From contig WGAR01000005.1 in the NCBI GenBank assembly GCA_015494725.1, positions 1-45,446 of the forward strand: DNA of 45,446 bases. The letters are read 5' to 3'. Positions 34,693-44,271 of the stretch are shown here, piece after piece. A program made the translations under genes and the position numbers. The notes under the pieces are model-generated. The model was given only the letters and a program-made list of their open reading frames with translations, was not told the origin of the DNA and made no database searches. This stretch comes from Thermodesulfobacteriaceae bacterium. GTDB lineage: Bacteria; Desulfobacterota; Thermodesulfobacteria; Thermodesulfobacteriales; Thermodesulfobacteriaceae. Each line of letters starts with the position of its first letter. The first letter of the stretch is position 1.

Positions 34693-35503
34693 GACCCTTT
34701 ACCGCAAAAACATTCAGGTACGGGGTATCCGGGAGCTACCCCAGGACCTGCGCGACGAGATCTTGAGCGGCAGAAAGACCGTGCTGGTCTTCTCTTCGGG
34801 CAAGGTCTTTCCGGCTCAGGTGATCAAGGCCGTGGATAAGGCCGCGCTCATCCGTTTCACCGGACCGGTACCCCCGGTAAAACCTCCCGAGAATATCCTG
34901 CTGGTGGTGTCCTCTCCCACCACCCGTTACGTGTTCCAGGCCCTGGTGCGCGCCGTGGAAAAGGGGATCTTTCAGGTCCAGTTCCTGGAGCCCCGGGTGG
35001 AGGAACGCCTGGTTCCTCCGGGGGAGAGAGCGGTCTTTTTCACCCCCCTTACCCTTTCCCTTTTCGAGCCCCTCCTTTCCGGAAGATATTTTCTCCTGCG
35101 CGATACCAACCTCTCTCCGGAAGGGGTTAGGGACCTGGAGCAGGGCTATGTCTATGACCTCATCATTGACGATACGGACAACGTGGTGGATGAATTCGAG
35201 AGACTCATGTCCTCTCCGGGGAAGATCTTTACCCTGAGGGACATTTCGCGGGGCGGGGCCTGTATCTATATGAATCGGGTCTTCTCCCCGGAGAAAGAGG
35301 CCTTTCCCCTTTATCTGCGGGGCACCCTGGAGGGCCGGGGCCGGACCTTCAATTTCGGTCTGCTGGGGATTACCCGGAGGGTGCGCATCGAAGGAAACCG
35401 CACCTATTTCCATATCATGTGGGTACAGCGGCTGCGCCCTTTCGTTTTCGAATTTATGCTAGGACTCTTTTCCGAAACTCCTCCCAGCCCAGACGCTCGA
35501 TGA
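34655..35503 (+). CDS. PilZ-like domain protein
   Basis: C-terminal FTLRDISRGGACIYMNRVF matches the PilZ DxSxxG segment; YcgR-like N-terminal beta region; no clear RxxxR. Confidence 0.55.
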   Translation: MPEKILLPAYLRETLYRKNIQVRGIRELPQDLRDEILSGRKTVLVFSSGKVFPAQVIKAVDKAALIRFTGPVPPVKPPENILLVVSSPTTRYVFQALVRAVEKGIFQVQFLEPRVEERLVPPGERAVFFTPLTLSLFEPLLSGRYFLLRDTNLSPEGVRDLEQGYVYDLIIDDTDNVVDEFERLMSSPGKIFTLRDISRGGACIYMNRVFSPEKEAFPLYLRGTLEGRGRTFNFGLLGITRRVRIEGNRTYFHIMWVQRLRPFVFEFMLGLFSETPPSPDAR

Positions 35504-36266
35504 TGGCCCCCAGTCTCTCTCCGCGCCGATTCTCTTCCCGATAGATGCGGAGCACCCTCTCCAGGATCCGGAGCACTTCCTCCTCCCGGGCCAGGGGCAA
35601 TATCTCGGTGGCCAGGCGGGGGCGGCGTCCCAGTTTTCCCCCCACCAGGATGCGATAGCCCCGTTCCCCCTCCCGTAGGGCCCCGGTGGGACAGATCCGG
35701 GTACAGGCCCCGCAGGCCACACAGCGCGTCTCTTCCACCACCGGACCGGCCTCGGTCAGACGCAGGGCTTCCTCCTCGCAAACCTCCAGACAGGATTCAC
35801 AGAAACTGCATAGACCCGGCTCCACCTCCAGCCGTATGCGACCGTGGACCCCGAAATCGGCGATATGGATGCGGGAGCAGGCGTTGGGACATTCGGAAAA
35901 GGCCACCCGGAACTGATGATGGTGTTTGAGGGGTCCCCCGACCTTTTCCCTCAGGAAGGAGGTTAGATCGGCCTTCCGCAGGAGATCCTCCACCCGGCGG
36001 AGCAGAGGGGCCGAGTCGGTGAGGGCGTTTTTACATCCGGCTCCGCCGAAACAGGTTTCCACCGCGTATCCCTCCCGGGTTTCCGCGGCCTTGTCCCTTA
36101 ATTCCTCCCGGGCCTTAAGGAAATCGGCCGCGGTGATGAGGGTCTTTCCCTGCGAGGCGGCCCAGTCCTCCACCGCCTGGCGCACCCTTTTCCTTACCCA
36201 GAAGGGCACGCGCTTCAACCAGGCCTCGGCCTCCGGCGTCCATTCCATACCGGCCTCTCCTCCCAA
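35454..36266 (-). CDS. Siroheme/[4Fe-4S] sulfite reductase-like protein with PCP_red-type N-terminus and dicluster ferredoxin domain
   Basis: N-terminal WTPEAEAWLKRVPFWVRKRVRQAVEDWAASQGKTLITAADFLKARE (PCP_red-like); siroheme-Fe4S4 motif CFGGAGC (CX5C) ... CPNAC (CX3C); two ferredoxin motifs CSFCESCLEVC and CVACGACTRICPTGAL. Confidence 0.82.
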   Translation of the reverse strand: MGGEAGMEWTPEAEAWLKRVPFWVRKRVRQAVEDWAASQGKTLITAADFLKAREELRDKAAETREGYAVETCFGGAGCKNALTDSAPLLRRVEDLLRKADLTSFLREKVGGPLKHHHQFRVAFSECPNACSRIHIADFGVHGRIRLEVEPGLCSFCESCLEVCEEEALRLTEAGPVVEETRCVACGACTRICPTGALREGERGYRILVGGKLGRRPRLATEILPLAREEEVLRILERVLRIYREENRRGERLGAIIERLGWEEFRKRVLA

Positions 36267-36269
36267 GGT

Positions 36270-36998
36270 TTATAGTTCTTCCTCCCGGATTATCTCCCCC
36301 CGGGAACTGATCACCAGGGTGCGGATGGGGAGATCCGTGCCCGCGACCCTGCGGGCCTCGGTCAGGATCCTGGCCATTCCCCGACAGCAGGGAACCTCCA
36401 TGATGGCCAGGGTTACGCTACGGGGTTGGGCCTGGCGGAGGATCTCGCTCAGGCGGGCCACGTATTCCTCGGCCGGATCAAATTTGGGACACCCGATGAG
36501 GATCTTTTTCCCCGGGAGCAGCCGGGTGTGCAGGGCGGGATAGGCCACAGGCACGCAGTCCGCCGCCACCAGGAGATCCGCCCCCCGGAGGAAGGGAGCG
36601 GTGGGGGGAATCAGCCGGATCTGAACCGGCCACTGGGTCAGGGCCGAGGGAATATCCCCGGGCACCACCTGGCCGGAAGCGGCGGAAAACTCCTGCACCT
36701 GGCTGCCCGGGCATCCGCAGGCGAGACCCATAGGGGGAGACTCCCCCCGGAGGCGTTGCAGATGTTCCTCCACCGCCCGGTGATCAAAGGGTTCGGCCTC
36801 CCGTTCCACGATGCGTAGCGCTCCCCGGGGACATTCCCCGATACAGGCCCCCAGTCCATCACACAGCTTTTCCGCCACCAGGCGAGCCTTGCCGTCTATG
36901 ATCTGGATGGCTCCCTCCTCACAGGCGGTCACACACTGACCGCAACCGTCACAGAGTTCCTCGTCTATTTCGATGATCTTACGCAGGGTTTTGGGCAT
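36270..36998 (-). CDS. 4Fe-4S dicluster ferredoxin-like protein with C-terminal domain of unknown function
   Basis: CDGCGQCVTACEEGAIQI and CDGLGACIGECPRGALRI (one Cys of the second motif replaced). Confidence 0.85.
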   Translation of the reverse strand: MPKTLRKIIEIDEELCDGCGQCVTACEEGAIQIIDGKARLVAEKLCDGLGACIGECPRGALRIVEREAEPFDHRAVEEHLQRLRGESPPMGLACGCPGSQVQEFSAASGQVVPGDIPSALTQWPVQIRLIPPTAPFLRGADLLVAADCVPVAYPALHTRLLPGKKILIGCPKFDPAEEYVARLSEILRQAQPRSVTLAIMEVPCCRGMARILTEARRVAGTDLPIRTLVISSRGEIIREEEL

Positions 36999-37662: not shown

Positions 37663-38223
37663 GTGAGGACCAGGAGATTGTTGCTGCATACCTGCTGCGG
37701 CCCCTGCACCCTTTATCCCCTGCGGGTCCTCCGGGAGGAGGGCCTGGAGCCGGTGGGGTTCTTTTTCAATCCCAATATCCATCCCTACCGGGAGTTCCGC
37801 AAACGCATGGGGGCCCTGAGGGAGGTGGCGGAACGGCGCCATCTGGAGGTCATCTGGCACCGGGACTACGGTTTGAGGAACTTCCTGCGGGAGGTGGTCT
37901 TCCGGGAGGAAGACCGCTGCGAGGTCTGTTATTACCTGCGCCTGCGGGAGACCGCCGCCCTGGCCCGAAAGGAGGGATACCCGGTTTTCAGCACCACCCT
38001 CCTTTACAGCCCCTTTCAGCAGCACGAACTGATCCGGGACATAGGGGAAACCCTGGCTCGACGTTTCGGCTTGAGCTTTCTCTATCACGATTTTCGGGAG
38101 GGCTACGGCGAAGGCCAGAAGGAGGCCCGGGAGATGGGAATCTACCGCCAGCCGTACTGCGGGTGTATCTTCAGCGAGGAGGAACGCTACGACAAAAAAC
38201 TTCGCCGAAGGAGGAGGGCATGA
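37663..38223 (+). CDS. queH: Epoxyqueuosine reductase QueH
   Basis: LLLHTCCGPCTLYPLRVLREEGLEPVGFFFNPNIHPYREFRKR...RCEVCYYLRLRETA...FSTTLLYSPFQQHELI...YRQPYCGCIFSEEERY. GTG start. Confidence 0.93.
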   Translation: MRTRRLLLHTCCGPCTLYPLRVLREEGLEPVGFFFNPNIHPYREFRKRMGALREVAERRHLEVIWHRDYGLRNFLREVVFREEDRCEVCYYLRLRETAALARKEGYPVFSTTLLYSPFQQHELIRDIGETLARRFGLSFLYHDFREGYGEGQKEAREMGIYRQPYCGCIFSEEERYDKKLRRRRRA

Positions 38224-38441
38224 ATCCCCTGGCGGAAATGGGAAAGATGCTCATCCTTTTCGGAATCTTTCTCATCCTGGCCGGAGCCCTGACCCTCTTC
38301 CTTCCCAAACTCAGCCAGCTTCCCCGTCTTCCCGGCGACATCCTCATTCGCAAAGGGAACTTTACCTTCTACTTTCCGCTGGTTACCTGTCTGATCCTGA
38401 GCCTGCTCCTGACCCTGATCCTGAACATCCTGCGACGTTAG
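38220..38441 (+). CDS. DUF2905 family membrane protein
   Basis: MGKMLILFGIFLILAGALTLFLPKLSQLPRLPGDILIRKGNFTFYFPLVTCLILSLLLTLILNIL. Confidence 0.88.
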   Translation: MNPLAEMGKMLILFGIFLILAGALTLFLPKLSQLPRLPGDILIRKGNFTFYFPLVTCLILSLLLTLILNILRR

Positions 38442-38462: not shown

Positions 38463-38492
38463 TTGACAGGGAACCCTTTCCTGAATTTTAAT
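38463..38492 (+). promoter_or_regulatory. Putative promoter of the TGA-containing cytochrome gene
   Basis: TTGACA-N18-TTTAAT, 37 nt upstream of ATG 38530. Confidence 0.45.
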
Positions 38493-38529
38493 GGGAGGAG
38501 GGGATGATCAGGGCCGGAGGTCTATAAAT

Positions 38530-39765
38530 ATGAGAAAAACCCTAGCCCTCGGAGCCTTAGTTTTCTGTTTTTTGGGGCTGATATTCCCTCTTCAGGCCTT
38601 AGCCCAAAAACTCATTTTTCCTAAGGATAAATTAATAGATAATTTTGATGAATTCGTGCAGACCTTCAGTTCCCGGCGGTGTCAGGCCTGTCATCCCCGG
38701 GTCTATCACCAGTGGGAGCAGTCCTATCATGCCCGTTCCCTGGTGGATTCCATCAAGCGCATGGCCAGTTTTTTCGCGGTGGGGATACCCAAGGAATGGC
38801 AGAAGCCCCTGAACAAAAAGGAGATGCTCAAGTGTTTCGATTGTCATCTACCGCAGATCCGCTATGCCACGGATCGTCTGGCCCTGGAGATAGTGGGCAT
38901 GCTCATAGAGGCGCAGAAGGCCCGGGAATCCGGGGACAAGGTCCGTTTCCAGAAGGCTTACTCCCGGCTCTCCCGTCTCAATATCACCTGTTATGCCTGT
39001 CATAACATTGTGGTGTATCGGGCCTCTCCGGGCCTGTTCGGGAAACCCGATCCCCAGACCATTTACACCTCCACTCCGAAGAAGATAAAGGCCCCCCATG
39101 CCACGGCCTTTGCCCCCACCCTGAAGACCGCGGCCTTTTGTGCCTGGTGCCATGGGATCTACGTGGCCTCAGACGGCGAAAAGACCATGTGTAATACCCT
39201 CTCCCAGAGCTATTATCATGGCTATATCGCTCTCGGAGGGCGGAAGAGCTGTCAGGAATGTCATATGTATCCTCCGGGGCGGGGGCATCGGTTCCCCGGA
39301 GCTCACGACCTGGACATGCTGCGGGAGGGGCTGGGTCTGGATGCGGAGATCCGGGGGTTCCGCTACGGGGTGGAGGAATGGGTCCCGGCGGTGGACGTGG
39401 AGGTCACCCTGATCAACCGGGCCGGGCACCGGATACCGGATGGGTGATTCTGGTCCGGCAAGGTGGTCCTGGAGGTGACCGCCAAAGATCCGTCCACCGG
39501 AAAGGTCTGGTACCGGGCCAAGCGGGAATACTTCGAGGTGGGTCTGGATATCCAGGGGCGGATGCGTTACGGGGCCTGGCAGATCAAGGAGATCCTGGAT
39601 CTCTCCCTGCCTCCGCGACTCTCCCGTCCGGAACGTTTCCTCTTTACCCTGCCCCCGGACACCCGGGAGGTGGAAGTAGGGGTGACCCTGTACTACTGTC
39701 TCAAGGACCATCAGTGTACCCCGGTGCGCCAGACGGTTAGACGCCTTCGTTATCCCCGCCTGTGA
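38530..39765 (+). CDS. Five-heme c-type cytochrome with in-frame TGA (candidate selenocysteine); ExtKL-like
   Basis: Signal peptide; CQACH, CFDCH, CYACH, CAWCH, CQECH; TGA at 39445-39447 after ...LINRAGHRIPDG, then the same frame open for FWSGKVVLEVTAKDPSTGKVWYRAKREYFEVGLDIQGRMRYGAWQIKEILDLSLPP... to 39765. Confidence 0.7.
39462..39483 (+). promoter_or_regulatory. Candidate bacterial SECIS hairpin
   Basis: GGUGGUC-CUGGAGGU-GACCGCC: 7-bp stem (one G-U), 8-nt loop with GG/GGU, loop starting 21 nt after the UGA. Confidence 0.45.
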
Positions 39766-41090
39766 TGCCCGGCCGGCCCGGGAGGCTTTACGTAGCGGGT
39801 TTCGGGGATGAGTTCCGGTTCCCCGCAATGGAATCCCTGCGCGTAGGAGATTCCGTAACGGGTAAGTTCCCGCAGGATGCGTTCCTCCTCCACCTGTTCG
39901 GCTACCAGCTTAAAACCCTGTAACAGGGCGCAGTCGGAAAGGAACCCCAGGACCCGGCGATCGAACTCGTTGGTGATCAATCCCCGGATGCACCCACCGT
40001 CCACCTTAACCATATCCCAGGGAATGTCCCGTAGAAAGGAAAGATGCACTCCTTCGCTTCCGAATTTGTCCAGGCTCAGGGAGAAGCCTTCGCCCTTTAA
40101 GAAATGCAGTTTGGGGAAGAGGCTTAAGGGAGGGACGGTGCTTTGGGGATGGATTTCCAGGATGATATCCTGGGGATAGAGATCCAGCTCGCGAATCCAG
40201 GAGAGGAGATCCTGGCCCAGATCTCCCAGGATGTATTGCGGGGAGATATTTACGGCCACCCGACCTATTTCCGGGGTATTTTTGAGGAGGACCAGGGCCT
40301 TATAAAGGATCTGCCGGTCCAGGTCTTCGAAGAGTCCCAGGCCCTCCACCGAGGGAAGGAAGGTTCCGGCGGAGACGGTTCCCTCTTCGGAGATGAAACG
40401 GGCCAGGACTTCGTGAAAGACTACCTTTCCGGTGCGGATATTTAAGGCCGGCTGAAGGGCCACGGCCAGTTCTCCCCGCACGATGGCCCGAAAGATCTTC
40501 TGTTCCAGGCTTTTCTGTTCCGGACTCTCGCTACCCAGGATGACCAGAGGTTCCCGGGCCAGACGGGCCTTGGGCAGGAGCTTGAGGGTCTGGTGCAGGA
40601 GTTCCGCGGAGGGGGAGCCGCCGCACAGCACCCGGGTGATCAGGGTGGTGCGCACCGGAAAGGTCAGTTTCCCGTCGTCATAGACCAGATCCTCCACCAG
40701 TTCCTGGATGCGCTGGGCGATACGGGCCCCTTCTCCGGTCCGTTTTATGGGGGTGGCGATCCAGAAGATGTTCCGGGAGGTGGTTCCCAGCAGATCATAA
40801 ACCCGGAGGTGCTTTTTGAGGTGTTCAGCCAGAAAACTCAGGATCTTCTGCACCCCGAAGACCCCGAAGACCCCCTCCACCGCCTCCAGGCCCTGGATCT
40901 CCAGGAGGGTCAGGGCCAGAAAATACCCCTCCCGCAGACACCGGGACATCTCCGCGTTCAGGGCCCGCAGGAAGCCCCTTTCGTTGAAAAAACCGGTAAT
41001 CGGGTCTATAAGAAGGAGTTCCCGGGTGCGGGCGAGTTCCTCCTCGCACTCGGCCAGGCGTTTTTTCAGGAATCCCTGATCTTCGGGCAT
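39750..41090 (-). CDS. Degenerate GGDEF-EAL domain protein
   Basis: LLLIDPITGFFNERGF...; GGDEF site replaced by TSRNIFW; EAL-like ALQPALNIRTGKVVFHEVLARF, VNISPQY, LSLDKFG, VAEQVEEERILRELTRYGISYAQGFHCGEP. Confidence 0.85.
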   Translation of the reverse strand: MPEDQGFLKKRLAECEEELARTRELLLIDPITGFFNERGFLRALNAEMSRCLREGYFLALTLLEIQGLEAVEGVFGVFGVQKILSFLAEHLKKHLRVYDLLGTTSRNIFWIATPIKRTGEGARIAQRIQELVEDLVYDDGKLTFPVRTTLITRVLCGGSPSAELLHQTLKLLPKARLAREPLVILGSESPEQKSLEQKIFRAIVRGELAVALQPALNIRTGKVVFHEVLARFISEEGTVSAGTFLPSVEGLGLFEDLDRQILYKALVLLKNTPEIGRVAVNISPQYILGDLGQDLLSWIRELDLYPQDIILEIHPQSTVPPLSLFPKLHFLKGEGFSLSLDKFGSEGVHLSFLRDIPWDMVKVDGGCIRGLITNEFDRRVLGFLSDCALLQGFKLVAEQVEEERILRELTRYGISYAQGFHCGEPELIPETRYVKPPGPAGHHRRG

Positions 41091-41129: not shown

Positions 41130-42275
41130 ATGCGGATCAAGACCCGCCCCGAGGACTTTGTGGTGTACGAGGTGGCGGACATCCATCCCGAGGGGGAGGG
41201 GGAATATGCCCTCTATCGACTCTGGAAGAGGGATCTTACCACCTGGGACGTTCTGGGGGAGATCGCCCGGCGTTTGCGTCTGCGCCAGGATCTTATCGGT
41301 TACGGGGGGCTCAAAGACCGCCATGCCGTGGCCTATCAATTCGTGACCATTCCCCGGGGTCCCCGGAGGGATCTTCAGGGTCGGGGCTGGCGGCTGGAAT
41401 ATCTGGGCCAGGTCTCCTCCCCCATGAACAAGGCGCGGTTACGGGGCAATCTCTTCGAGATCATCGTGCGGGAGGTGGATCGGTCCGAGGAGGAACTGGC
41501 CCGGGAAGCGGAAGCGGTGACCCGGTACGGTATCCCCAATTATTTCGATGAACAGCGTTTCGGTTCGGTACGCCACGGCCGGGGCTTTGCCGCCCGTGAG
41601 GCCGTGTGCGGCAATTACGAAAGGGCCCTCTATCTTCTTCTGGTGGAGGGCTCGCAATACGAATACCAGCGTACCGCATCCTTCCGGGAATGTCTGCGTC
41701 GGCACTGGCCCCGGGTGGCTCCCTGCCTGGATCTGGCCCCCAGTCCCTGGGAAAGACGACTTCTGGAGTTTCTCTCCTCCCACCGCCCCAGCAAACGCAC
41801 CTTCAAAAGGGCCTTCGCCCTGGTGGATAGCGAATATCTTCTCCTGCTGGCCCAGGCCTATCAGGCCTATCTCTGGAACGAGATCCTGAAGCTCTATCTG
41901 CTCCGCAGGGGGCTGGTGCACTTTCGGTTACCCTATCTTCTGGGGGAACTCTATTTTTATCGGGAGCTTCCCCCGGAGGAAAGCGAGCTTTTTACCCTCA
42001 AACTTCCCCTTCCCAGTCCCCGACTTCGTCTTTCCGAAAGGTGGCGGGATCTCTATCAGGAGGTGCTGCGCCGGGAGGGGATCGAGGACCTTTCCCGTCT
42101 GAGGACCCTGGTGCGGGGGCTGGTCTTTAAGACCTATCCGCGCGAGGCGGTGGTCTTTCCCCGGGAGATGAGCTTCCGTTTCGAGGATCCTCGCACCGTG
42201 CGTTTGCGGTTTTTCCTCCCCCGGGGTTCTTACGCCACCCTGGTGCTCAAACGCCTTTTTCGAGCCGGGACCTAG
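41130..42275 (+). CDS. truD: tRNA pseudouridine(13) synthase TruD
   Basis: MRIKTRPEDFVVYEVADIHPEGEGEYALYRLWKRDLTTWDVLGEIARRL...IGYGGLKDRHAVAYQFVTIP...GIPNYFDEQRFGSVRHGRGF. Confidence 0.95.
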   Translation: MRIKTRPEDFVVYEVADIHPEGEGEYALYRLWKRDLTTWDVLGEIARRLRLRQDLIGYGGLKDRHAVAYQFVTIPRGPRRDLQGRGWRLEYLGQVSSPMNKARLRGNLFEIIVREVDRSEEELAREAEAVTRYGIPNYFDEQRFGSVRHGRGFAAREAVCGNYERALYLLLVEGSQYEYQRTASFRECLRRHWPRVAPCLDLAPSPWERRLLEFLSSHRPSKRTFKRAFALVDSEYLLLLAQAYQAYLWNEILKLYLLRRGLVHFRLPYLLGELYFYRELPPEESELFTLKLPLPSPRLRLSERWRDLYQEVLRREGIEDLSRLRTLVRGLVFKTYPREAVVFPREMSFRFEDPRTVRLRFFLPRGSYATLVLKRLFRAGT

Positions 42276-42778
42276 GACTTCTTTTCCAGAGGAGCCCCGC
42301 ACTGCATACAGAAACGCGCGGTGATGGGGTTTTCGACCCCGCAGTCCGGACAGGTCTGTTTTCGGCGGGGTTTTTGCGGGCCCTTTTCCCGACTTTGACC
42401 GGAGATGCGGGCCTCGTAATCCAGGATGGCTTCCTTTAAGGCCTTGGCTCCCAGCACCGAGCAATGCCATTTCTGTTTGGGGAGTCCGCCCAGTTCCCGG
42501 GCGATGTCTTCGTTGCGGAGGGCCTTGGCCTCCTCCAGGGTTCGGCCCTTGGCCATTTCGCTGACCACACTGGCCACGGCAATGGCCGCCACGCACCCGA
42601 AGGTCTTGTACTTCACATCCACGATGCGTCCATCCCGTACCTTGATGTAAAAGGTCATCATATCTCCGCAGGCGGGATTACCCACCTCGCCCACTCCATC
42701 GGCATCCTCCAGAGTTCCGATATTGCGGGGATGGGTGAAGTGTTCCAGGACTTTTTCCGTATATTTTTCCGTAAACAT
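42272..42778 (-). CDS. IscU/NifU-type Fe-S scaffold with C-terminal zinc ribbon
   Basis: MFTEKYTEKVLEHFTHPRNIGTLEDADGVGEVGNPACGDMMTFYIKV...KTFGCVAAIAVAS...HCSVLGAKALKEAI, then CPDCGVENPITARFCMQCGAPL. Confidence 0.93.
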   Translation of the reverse strand: MFTEKYTEKVLEHFTHPRNIGTLEDADGVGEVGNPACGDMMTFYIKVRDGRIVDVKYKTFGCVAAIAVASVVSEMAKGRTLEEAKALRNEDIARELGGLPKQKWHCSVLGAKALKEAILDYEARISGQSREKGPQKPRRKQTCPDCGVENPITARFCMQCGAPLEKKS

Positions 42779-42797
42779 AGACTTCCTCCTTGAGTCA

Positions 42798-43964
42798 TTA
42801 TTCTTTCCAGATCGGGCTCATGGCCCGCAAGCGGGCCACGGCCTGAGGCAGGACCTCGAGGACCCGTTCGATCTCCTCCTCGGTGTTCCATTCCTCCAGG
42901 GTAAGGACCAGGGATCCCTGGGCCACCACCTCGGGAAGACCGATGGCCCGGAGCACGGGCGAGGTCTTCAGGGCCTTGGAGGCGCAGGCGGAGCCGGTAT
43001 TTCCGTAGATTCCGTATGCAGCCAGGGTAAAGACCAGGGCCTCGCCCTCGATGCCCTCGAAACAGAAGCTGGCGTGTCCCGGGAGTCTTCTCTCCGGATC
43101 GCCGGTATAGTGGGTTCGGGGGACCCGGGAGAGGATCCCTTCCACCAGACGATCGCGCAACCTCCGGAGGTAGGGTCCCTTGCGGGGGAGGCGTTCCTTC
43201 AGGATCCGGGCCGCCACCCCCAGCCCGATGATTCCGGGTACGTTTTCTGTTCCGGCCCGCCAGCCTCTTTCCTGGATTCCCCCGTGAATAAGGGGCATGA
43301 TCCGGAGCCCTTTGCGAAGATAGAGGGCTCCCACCCCCTTGGGTGCTCCCAGACTGATCCCGGAAAGGGAGAGCAGATCCACGCCCAGTTCCTTTACCTG
43401 GACCGGGATCTGGCCCACCGAGGCCACGGCGTCGGTATGGAAGAAGGAACCGTTGGCGTGGGCGATCTCGGCCAGGGTGCGGATGTCCTGGATGGTGCCG
43501 ATTTCGTTGCTGGCGTGCGCTACCGAGACCAGGATCGTGTCCGGGGTGAGCATCTTTTGCAGGGTTTCGGGGTTTACGCGCCCCTTCGAATCCACCGGGA
43601 TAAGGGCCATTTCGAAGCCCAGTCTTTCCAGGAAGCGGGCGCTATTGAGAACGGAGTGATGTTCGATGGCCGAGACCAGGATACGCCGGCCTTTTTTGCT
43701 GTGGGCCAGGGCCAGCCCCTTGATGGCCAGGTTATTGGCCTCGGCCCCGCAGGAGGTGAAGATGATCTCTCCGGCTTCGGCTCCGATGAGATCCGCCACC
43801 CGGGCCCGGGCCTCCTCGATCCTTTCCCGGATCTCGCCCCCCAGGTCGTAAACCGCGGAGGGATTCCAGAACCATTCCCGGAAATAGGGCTGGATGGCCT
43901 CCCATACCTCCGGGAGAACCGGGGTGGCTGCGGCATGGTCCAGATAAATGATTTTTTCCTTCAT
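42798..43964 (-). CDS. NifS/IscS-family protein lacking the PLP-binding lysine
   Basis: IIYLDHAAATPVLPEV...SAIEHHSVLNS...FFHTDAVASVGQIPV...LLSLSGISLGAPKGVGALYLRKG...GIQERGWRAGTENVPGI...GNTGSACASKALKTSPVL. Family clear, but SGHKxxGPKG reads SGISLGAPKG. Confidence 0.92.
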   Translation of the reverse strand: MKEKIIYLDHAAATPVLPEVWEAIQPYFREWFWNPSAVYDLGGEIRERIEEARARVADLIGAEAGEIIFTSCGAEANNLAIKGLALAHSKKGRRILVSAIEHHSVLNSARFLERLGFEMALIPVDSKGRVNPETLQKMLTPDTILVSVAHASNEIGTIQDIRTLAEIAHANGSFFHTDAVASVGQIPVQVKELGVDLLSLSGISLGAPKGVGALYLRKGLRIMPLIHGGIQERGWRAGTENVPGIIGLGVAARILKERLPRKGPYLRRLRDRLVEGILSRVPRTHYTGDPERRLPGHASFCFEGIEGEALVFTLAAYGIYGNTGSACASKALKTSPVLRAIGLPEVVAQGSLVLTLEEWNTEEEIERVLEVLPQAVARLRAMSPIWKE

Positions 43965-44239
43965 CGTTTTAACTCCGGATGTTTTTCGGTGTCCCGAACC
44001 TTTTTGATATAAAAACGGAAGAACCCCTCATCCTCCTTGAGCCCCAGGAATTCCTGACCTTTCTTGGCGCACCAGGCCGGGATATCCTCCAGGGCCCCGT
44101 CGTAATCGGTAAGGATCTCCAGGATCTGGCCCACCTCCAGTTCCTTCAAGAACTCCTCGGGCTCCAGCAGATGCATGGGACACATGCGATAAACCAGGTC
44201 CACCGTGACATCGGCCTGCATCTTCTCTACGAACTTCAT
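43961..44239 (-). CDS. TusA/SirA-like sulfurtransferase
   Basis: MKFVEKMQADVTVDLVYRMCPMHLLEPEEFLKELEVGQILEILTDYDGALEDIPAWCAKKGQEFLGLKEDEGFFRFYIKKVRD; TusA-type CPxP-like CPMH and C-terminal pattern; ATGA overlap with iscS. Confidence 0.82.
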   Translation of the reverse strand: MKFVEKMQADVTVDLVYRMCPMHLLEPEEFLKELEVGQILEILTDYDGALEDIPAWCAKKGQEFLGLKEDEGFFRFYIKKVRDTEKHPELKR

Positions 44240-44271
44240 GGCCCTCACCTTACTCTAGTATTCTAGTAGGG

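Follow-up and report, generated by a model that had tools for sequence, protein, structure and literature searches.

A probable selenocysteine-containing pentaheme c-type cytochrome of the ExtKL/MccSep family in a Thermodesulfobacteriaceae bacterium

The ExtKL protein of Geobacter sulfurreducens (GSU2937-2936) has been proposed to be a five-heme selenoprotein (PMC5877670; PMC6148476), and ExtKL is included in the prokaryotic selenoprotein family list of 2026 (PMC13188914). Geobacter extKL sits within extHIJKLMNOPQS (PMC5877670). A role in selenite/tellurite reduction has been suggested only for Geobacter (PMC5877670), and the extI mutant data from Geobacter are about a gene neighbouring extKL. 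The location in the ext cluster is a feature of the Geobacter prototype and is not part of the NCBI family model, NCBIfam NF040886 (“multiheme c-type cytochrome (seleno)protein ExtKL”, cyt_C_like_Sec), which has a curated cut-off of 250 bits.

Crystal structures from the family are available as PDB 9wt8, 9wt9, 9wta, 9wtb and 9wtc (“Multiheme cytochrome c selenoprotein (MccSep)”), the U325A mutant among them. MccSep was solved as one chain of 450 residues, and residue 325 of the wild-type chain is given as X (Sec). In cable bacteria, the sPHC pentaheme cytochromes are described as structural homologues of ExtKL located away from porin genes, with a two-gene structure in one strain; the accessible part of that paper does not mention Sec (PMC11976967). 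An Electrothrix locus (L033) has TGA at the Sec column. The host biology of the cable-bacteria proteins differs from that of the gene studied here. Cytochrome c552 from Thermochromatium tepidum (5ze8) is a distant pentaheme relative.

The gene across the in-frame TGA

We analyzed a 45,446-nucleotide stretch of DNA (hereafter, the window) from a Thermodesulfobacteriaceae bacterium. The first-pass annotation had proposed that positions 38530-39765 of the forward strand encode one five-CxxCH cytochrome with a signal-like N-terminus, interrupted by an in-frame TGA, and had brought up the name ExtKL. The read-through frame starts at ATG 38530, passes the TGA at 39445-39447 (codon 306) and continues through 105 open codons to the terminal TGA at 39763-39765. 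The read-through protein matched NF040886 with 410.6 bits over residues 9-396. This full-length match is far beyond chance; it agrees with the name ExtKL (PMC5877670; PMC6148476) and, together with the conservation of the TGA described below, with a single gene rather than two. As had also been pointed out, the ORF listing cuts the gene into two parts, 38491-39447 and 39463-39765. The features of the gene are as follows.

38516-38520, + strand: GGAGG, probable ribosome-binding site 9 nt upstream of the ATG (direct reading).
38530-39765, + strand: probable ExtKL/MccSep-family pentaheme c-type cytochrome selenoprotein, 411 amino acids, with Sec as residue 306 (NF040886 match, alignment and structural model).
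38530-38607, + strand: hydrophobic N-terminal segment MRKTLALGALVFCFLGLIFPLQALAQ, probable Sec signal peptide (sequence; helix 2-24 in the model).
38680-39264, + strand: five CxxCH heme c motifs, residues 51-55, 102-106, 154-158, 204-208 and 241-245 (invariant in 49 sequences).
39190-39192, + strand: Cys221, an invariant non-heme cysteine (49/49 sequences).
39424-39444, + strand: codons of G299-H-R-I-P-D-G305, of which G299, H300, P303, D304 and G305 are invariant.
39445-39447, + strand: TGA codon, probably read as selenocysteine (U306) (71/72 loci; Cys in other copies; Sec of MccSep aligned).
39448-39762, + strand: C-terminal portion of the non-heme, beta-rich domain, evolving under purifying selection (dN/dS against a close relative; strands in the model).
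39462-39483, + strand: probable SECIS hairpin GGUGGUCCUGGAGGUGACCGCC, with a conserved core at 39463-39482, a stem, a bulged U and a GGA apical loop (conservation and folding).

Like ExtKL of G. sulfurreducens, the window protein is a pentaheme cytochrome with a probable signal peptide, and the in-frame TGA is in the same column. In contrast to the Geobacter-type proteins (PDG-U-P-T/S), with which it has approximately 30% identity, it falls in a separate clade, and its gene has neither extHIJ nor extMNOPQS neighbors. MccSep belongs to the same family over residues 4-377 and its Sec325 aligns with residue 306 of the window protein; however, its motif U-P-T-P-N-R places it in the other clade, again with approximately 30% identity. 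Cytochrome c552 has the C-terminal region in common and a Cys aligned with C221, but possesses Ala at the position aligned with Sec306. Because a Sec-containing member of the family has already been solved structurally, the gene is less novel than the first-pass annotation supposed.

Conservation of the Sec column and the SECIS-like hairpin

The first-pass annotation had asked for an alignment of orthologues at the TGA column. In a first-fetched set of 72 homologous loci from Thermodesulfobacteriota and Nitrospirota, the aligned column was TGA in 71 and GTT in the remaining one; the assembly of a close relative (L002) has the same TGA as the window gene, and so does the orthologue in Thermosulfurimonas dismutans (L003). 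A Cys codon, TGT, was found at this column in other copies, namely those of L094, L095 and L099 and one copy in L100. Two of these (L094, G327:C21; L095, G289:C11) are second ExtKL copies in genomes that also have a TGA copy. Mapped on a maximum-likelihood tree built from 52 sequences, Cys arose at least three independent times, even when only strongly supported branches were counted. In a protein that is otherwise conserved, Sec/Cys exchange at a single column is the standard comparative signature of selenocysteine. One locus (L036) was omitted from the protein alignment because its stretch contains a second stop. We also suspected TAA-coded Sec from an in-frame TAA in the second copies of G327 and G289, and this idea was rejected since their Sec column is Cys (TGT); in the G289 copy, one TAA is premature, near residue 82.

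The tree divides the family into two deep clades, which carry the motifs U-L/F-W-S-G-K and U-P-T/S in the alignments. The former, strongly supported as separate, comprises the window gene, other Thermodesulfobacteriota and Nitrospirota, and the latter is the MccSep type. The branch of the window gene is approximately 10 times longer than that of its sister L004 (0.51 versus 0.047), a local acceleration with the TGA and SECIS intact.

Substitutions between the window gene and its nearest relative after the TGA are mostly synonymous (dN 0.013, dS 0.137). Against L002, in which the protein is 96% identical, dN/dS was approximately 0.03 before the TGA and approximately 0.09 after it. Therefore, the part downstream of the TGA is translated and constrained.

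Directly 3′ of the TGA, where the first-pass annotation had expected a SECIS, we found a SECIS-like hairpin. Its 20-nt core, GUGGUCCUGGAxGUGACCGC, occupies positions 19-38 (with the first base of the TGA as position 1) and is near-identical across the TGA genes. Codons 312, 313, 314, 316 and 317 are identical at synonymous sites in 64/65, 67/67, 67/69, 67/67 and 64/66 sequences, respectively. The normalized synonymous entropy of these five codons is 0 to 0.10, whereas all 206 other scored codons are higher (mean 0.89), and the 8-codon windows with the lowest synonymous entropy in the gene are all at or beside this site. Nearly every TGA sequence forms the hairpin core; in the Cys copies, both the core and its nucleotide sequence are lost. 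The core stem pairs are kept in 62 to 67 of 67 sequences; the outermost (18-39) and innermost (26-30) pairs are often not kept. With so little sequence variation, the stem shows weak covariation, and the signal is one of conservation. No SECIS model in an Rfam search matched the hairpin, and single-sequence folding of the hairpin region was not significant (z −1.3 to +0.7). Therefore, the case for the SECIS is a comparative one.

Selenocysteine machinery and alternative readings

A search of the genome for sel genes was another check that had been proposed. The window's own genome encodes selA (C140, 614 bits), selB (C110, 372 bits) and selD (C168, 366 bits); however, a gene for tRNA-Sec(UCA), selC, was not found in this assembly, which is 86% complete. 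All 11 relatives searched possess tRNA-Sec(UCA) at 73 to 85 bits, including G309, a single-contig genome of the same genus, and G396, the genome of L002. The simplest reading of the missing selC is an assembly gap. The DNA flanking the selC of G396 had no match in the window's assembly. The only match above threshold in the tRNA-Sec search of the own genome was considered as a candidate selC and rejected: it is a SelC-like tRNA-Cys with anticodon GCA (G000:C153:4222-4313; L082 1499-1593, minus strand), with a long acceptor stem and a long variable arm. Its GCA counterparts are present in G396, G384, G309 and G248, and this selC* tRNA-Cys class has already been described from Thermodesulfobacteria (PMC7609411). 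The selD gene (G000:C168:4687-5619, L090) is itself interrupted by a single in-frame TGA, which makes SelD a probable selenoprotein in this organism. A search of the window's own genome for NF041027, a family of outer-membrane barrel selenoproteins, found no member.

The TGA might be a real stop or an artefact, that is, a nonsense mutation, a pseudogene or a base error, as the first-pass annotation had itself considered. The frame is intact apart from this one stop, and the gene's tree branch is longer than those of its neighbors, as would fit such an event. However, the TGA is shared with the close relative L002 and at least 69 further loci, purifying selection persists past it and the SECIS is conserved. 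We give this reading practically no chance; from the sequence comparison, the conserved TGA and SECIS already refute it. Decoding of the UGA as cysteine by the SelC-like tRNA-Cys, instead of as Sec, is also very improbable. This tRNA is present in the genome, and a form of the class with anticodon UCA is known in other bacteria (PMC7609411). However, both here and in those relatives whose tRNA was read, it has the anticodon GCA, which reads UGU/UGC; moreover, a proper tRNA-Sec(UCA) occurs in relatives alongside their GCA tRNA, and selA and selD are present.

The gene could instead encode separate ExtK and ExtL proteins, with GTG 39463 as a second start, in keeping with the split made by ORF callers and with the older Geobacter annotation (PMC6148476). 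Against this, GTG 39463 belongs to the SECIS stem, the Cys copies are continuous genes through the site, both parts form a single, high-confidence unit in the AlphaFold model and the solved MccSep is a single chain. Two separate proteins are therefore highly unlikely, and a minor truncated product arising through inefficient read-through is possible. The TGA shared by orthologues, the Cys in other copies, the SECIS-like hairpin and the presence of selA, selB and selD all agree with the proposal that the TGA is read as Sec. Thus, the window gene very probably encodes a selenoprotein of the ExtKL/MccSep family, as far as comparative sequence evidence can tell.

Genomic setting and possible function

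The neighbors of the cytochrome gene at 37663-38223 and 38163-38441 encode a Cys-rich protein with Cys motifs and a small membrane protein, respectively; a GGDEF/EAL protein (39750-41090, minus strand) and TruD are also encoded nearby. A search for conserved neighbors over 42 loci found no gene family that recurs beside the ExtKL gene. In the window's lineage, the cytochrome gene is stand-alone, outside any ext conduit operon. Some distant ExtKL genes (L132, L135) lie, as judged by eye, near ArsR-like regulator, permease-like, rhodanese-like and DoxX-like ORFs, a setting unlike the ext cluster. Approximately 2.5 kb from the cytochrome gene, the window encodes in a row a NifU-like scaffold, a NifS-like cysteine desulfurase and a TusA/YedF-like protein (42272-44248, minus strand), which could act in sulfur or selenium delivery. 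At 35454-36266 (minus strand), there is a DsrA/DsrB/AsrC-like ferredoxin-containing protein with a protochlorophyllide-reductase-like N-terminus, adjoined by a ferredoxin-domain protein (36270-36998).

In the AlphaFold model of the window protein (mean pLDDT 91), the heme region is helical and gives way at approximately residue 268 to a beta-rich domain. In this C-terminal domain, U306 closes the invariant motif G-H-x-x-P-D-G-U. Outside the heme motifs, the candidate ligand or redox residues invariant in 49 sequences are H67, H253, H300, C221 and residue 306 (Sec or Cys). With only three invariant non-motif His residues for five hemes, at least one heme may be five-coordinate or otherwise ligated. 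Sec306 may be a heme ligand or a catalytic nucleophile beside a heme. Co-variation of Cys221 with Sec was considered and dropped, because C221 is also kept in the Cys copies and in a copy that has neither Sec nor Cys.

From the probable signal peptide, the protein is predicted to be periplasmic. We infer that it is a cytochrome of the periplasm that transfers electrons or reduces oxyanions and has a reactive Sec. The N-terminal part binds five hemes and the beta-rich C-terminal domain bears the Sec; after export, electrons would travel along the hemes to the Sec-containing site, which would reduce or bind a soluble substrate such as a chalcogen oxyanion (e.g. selenite), a reactive sulfur species or another small oxidant. 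Confidence in the substrate part of this explanation, which we regard as the best, is low. It is also conceivable, although we hold this with low confidence, that the proteins of the U-L/F-W-S-G-K clade, found in Thermodesulfobacteriota (Desulfobulbia-type lineages among them) and Nitrospirota, are periplasmic enzymes that stand alone and differ in function, in which Sec306, possibly with the invariant Cys221, would form a catalytic or heme-ligating site acting on sulfur/selenium species outside an ext conduit.

The ExtKL/MccSep kind of protein is itself already known and crystallized; the contribution of this locus is comparative support, the SECIS and the stand-alone deep clade. The comparisons firmly support the presence, in thermophilic Thermodesulfobacteriota, of a multiheme cytochrome that contains Sec. 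Because the SECIS is very tight across two phyla, it is usable to find and annotate split ExtKL copies. A second deep ExtKL clade without the Geobacter operon is marked out, and the new MccSep structures make the role of Sec beside five hemes testable.
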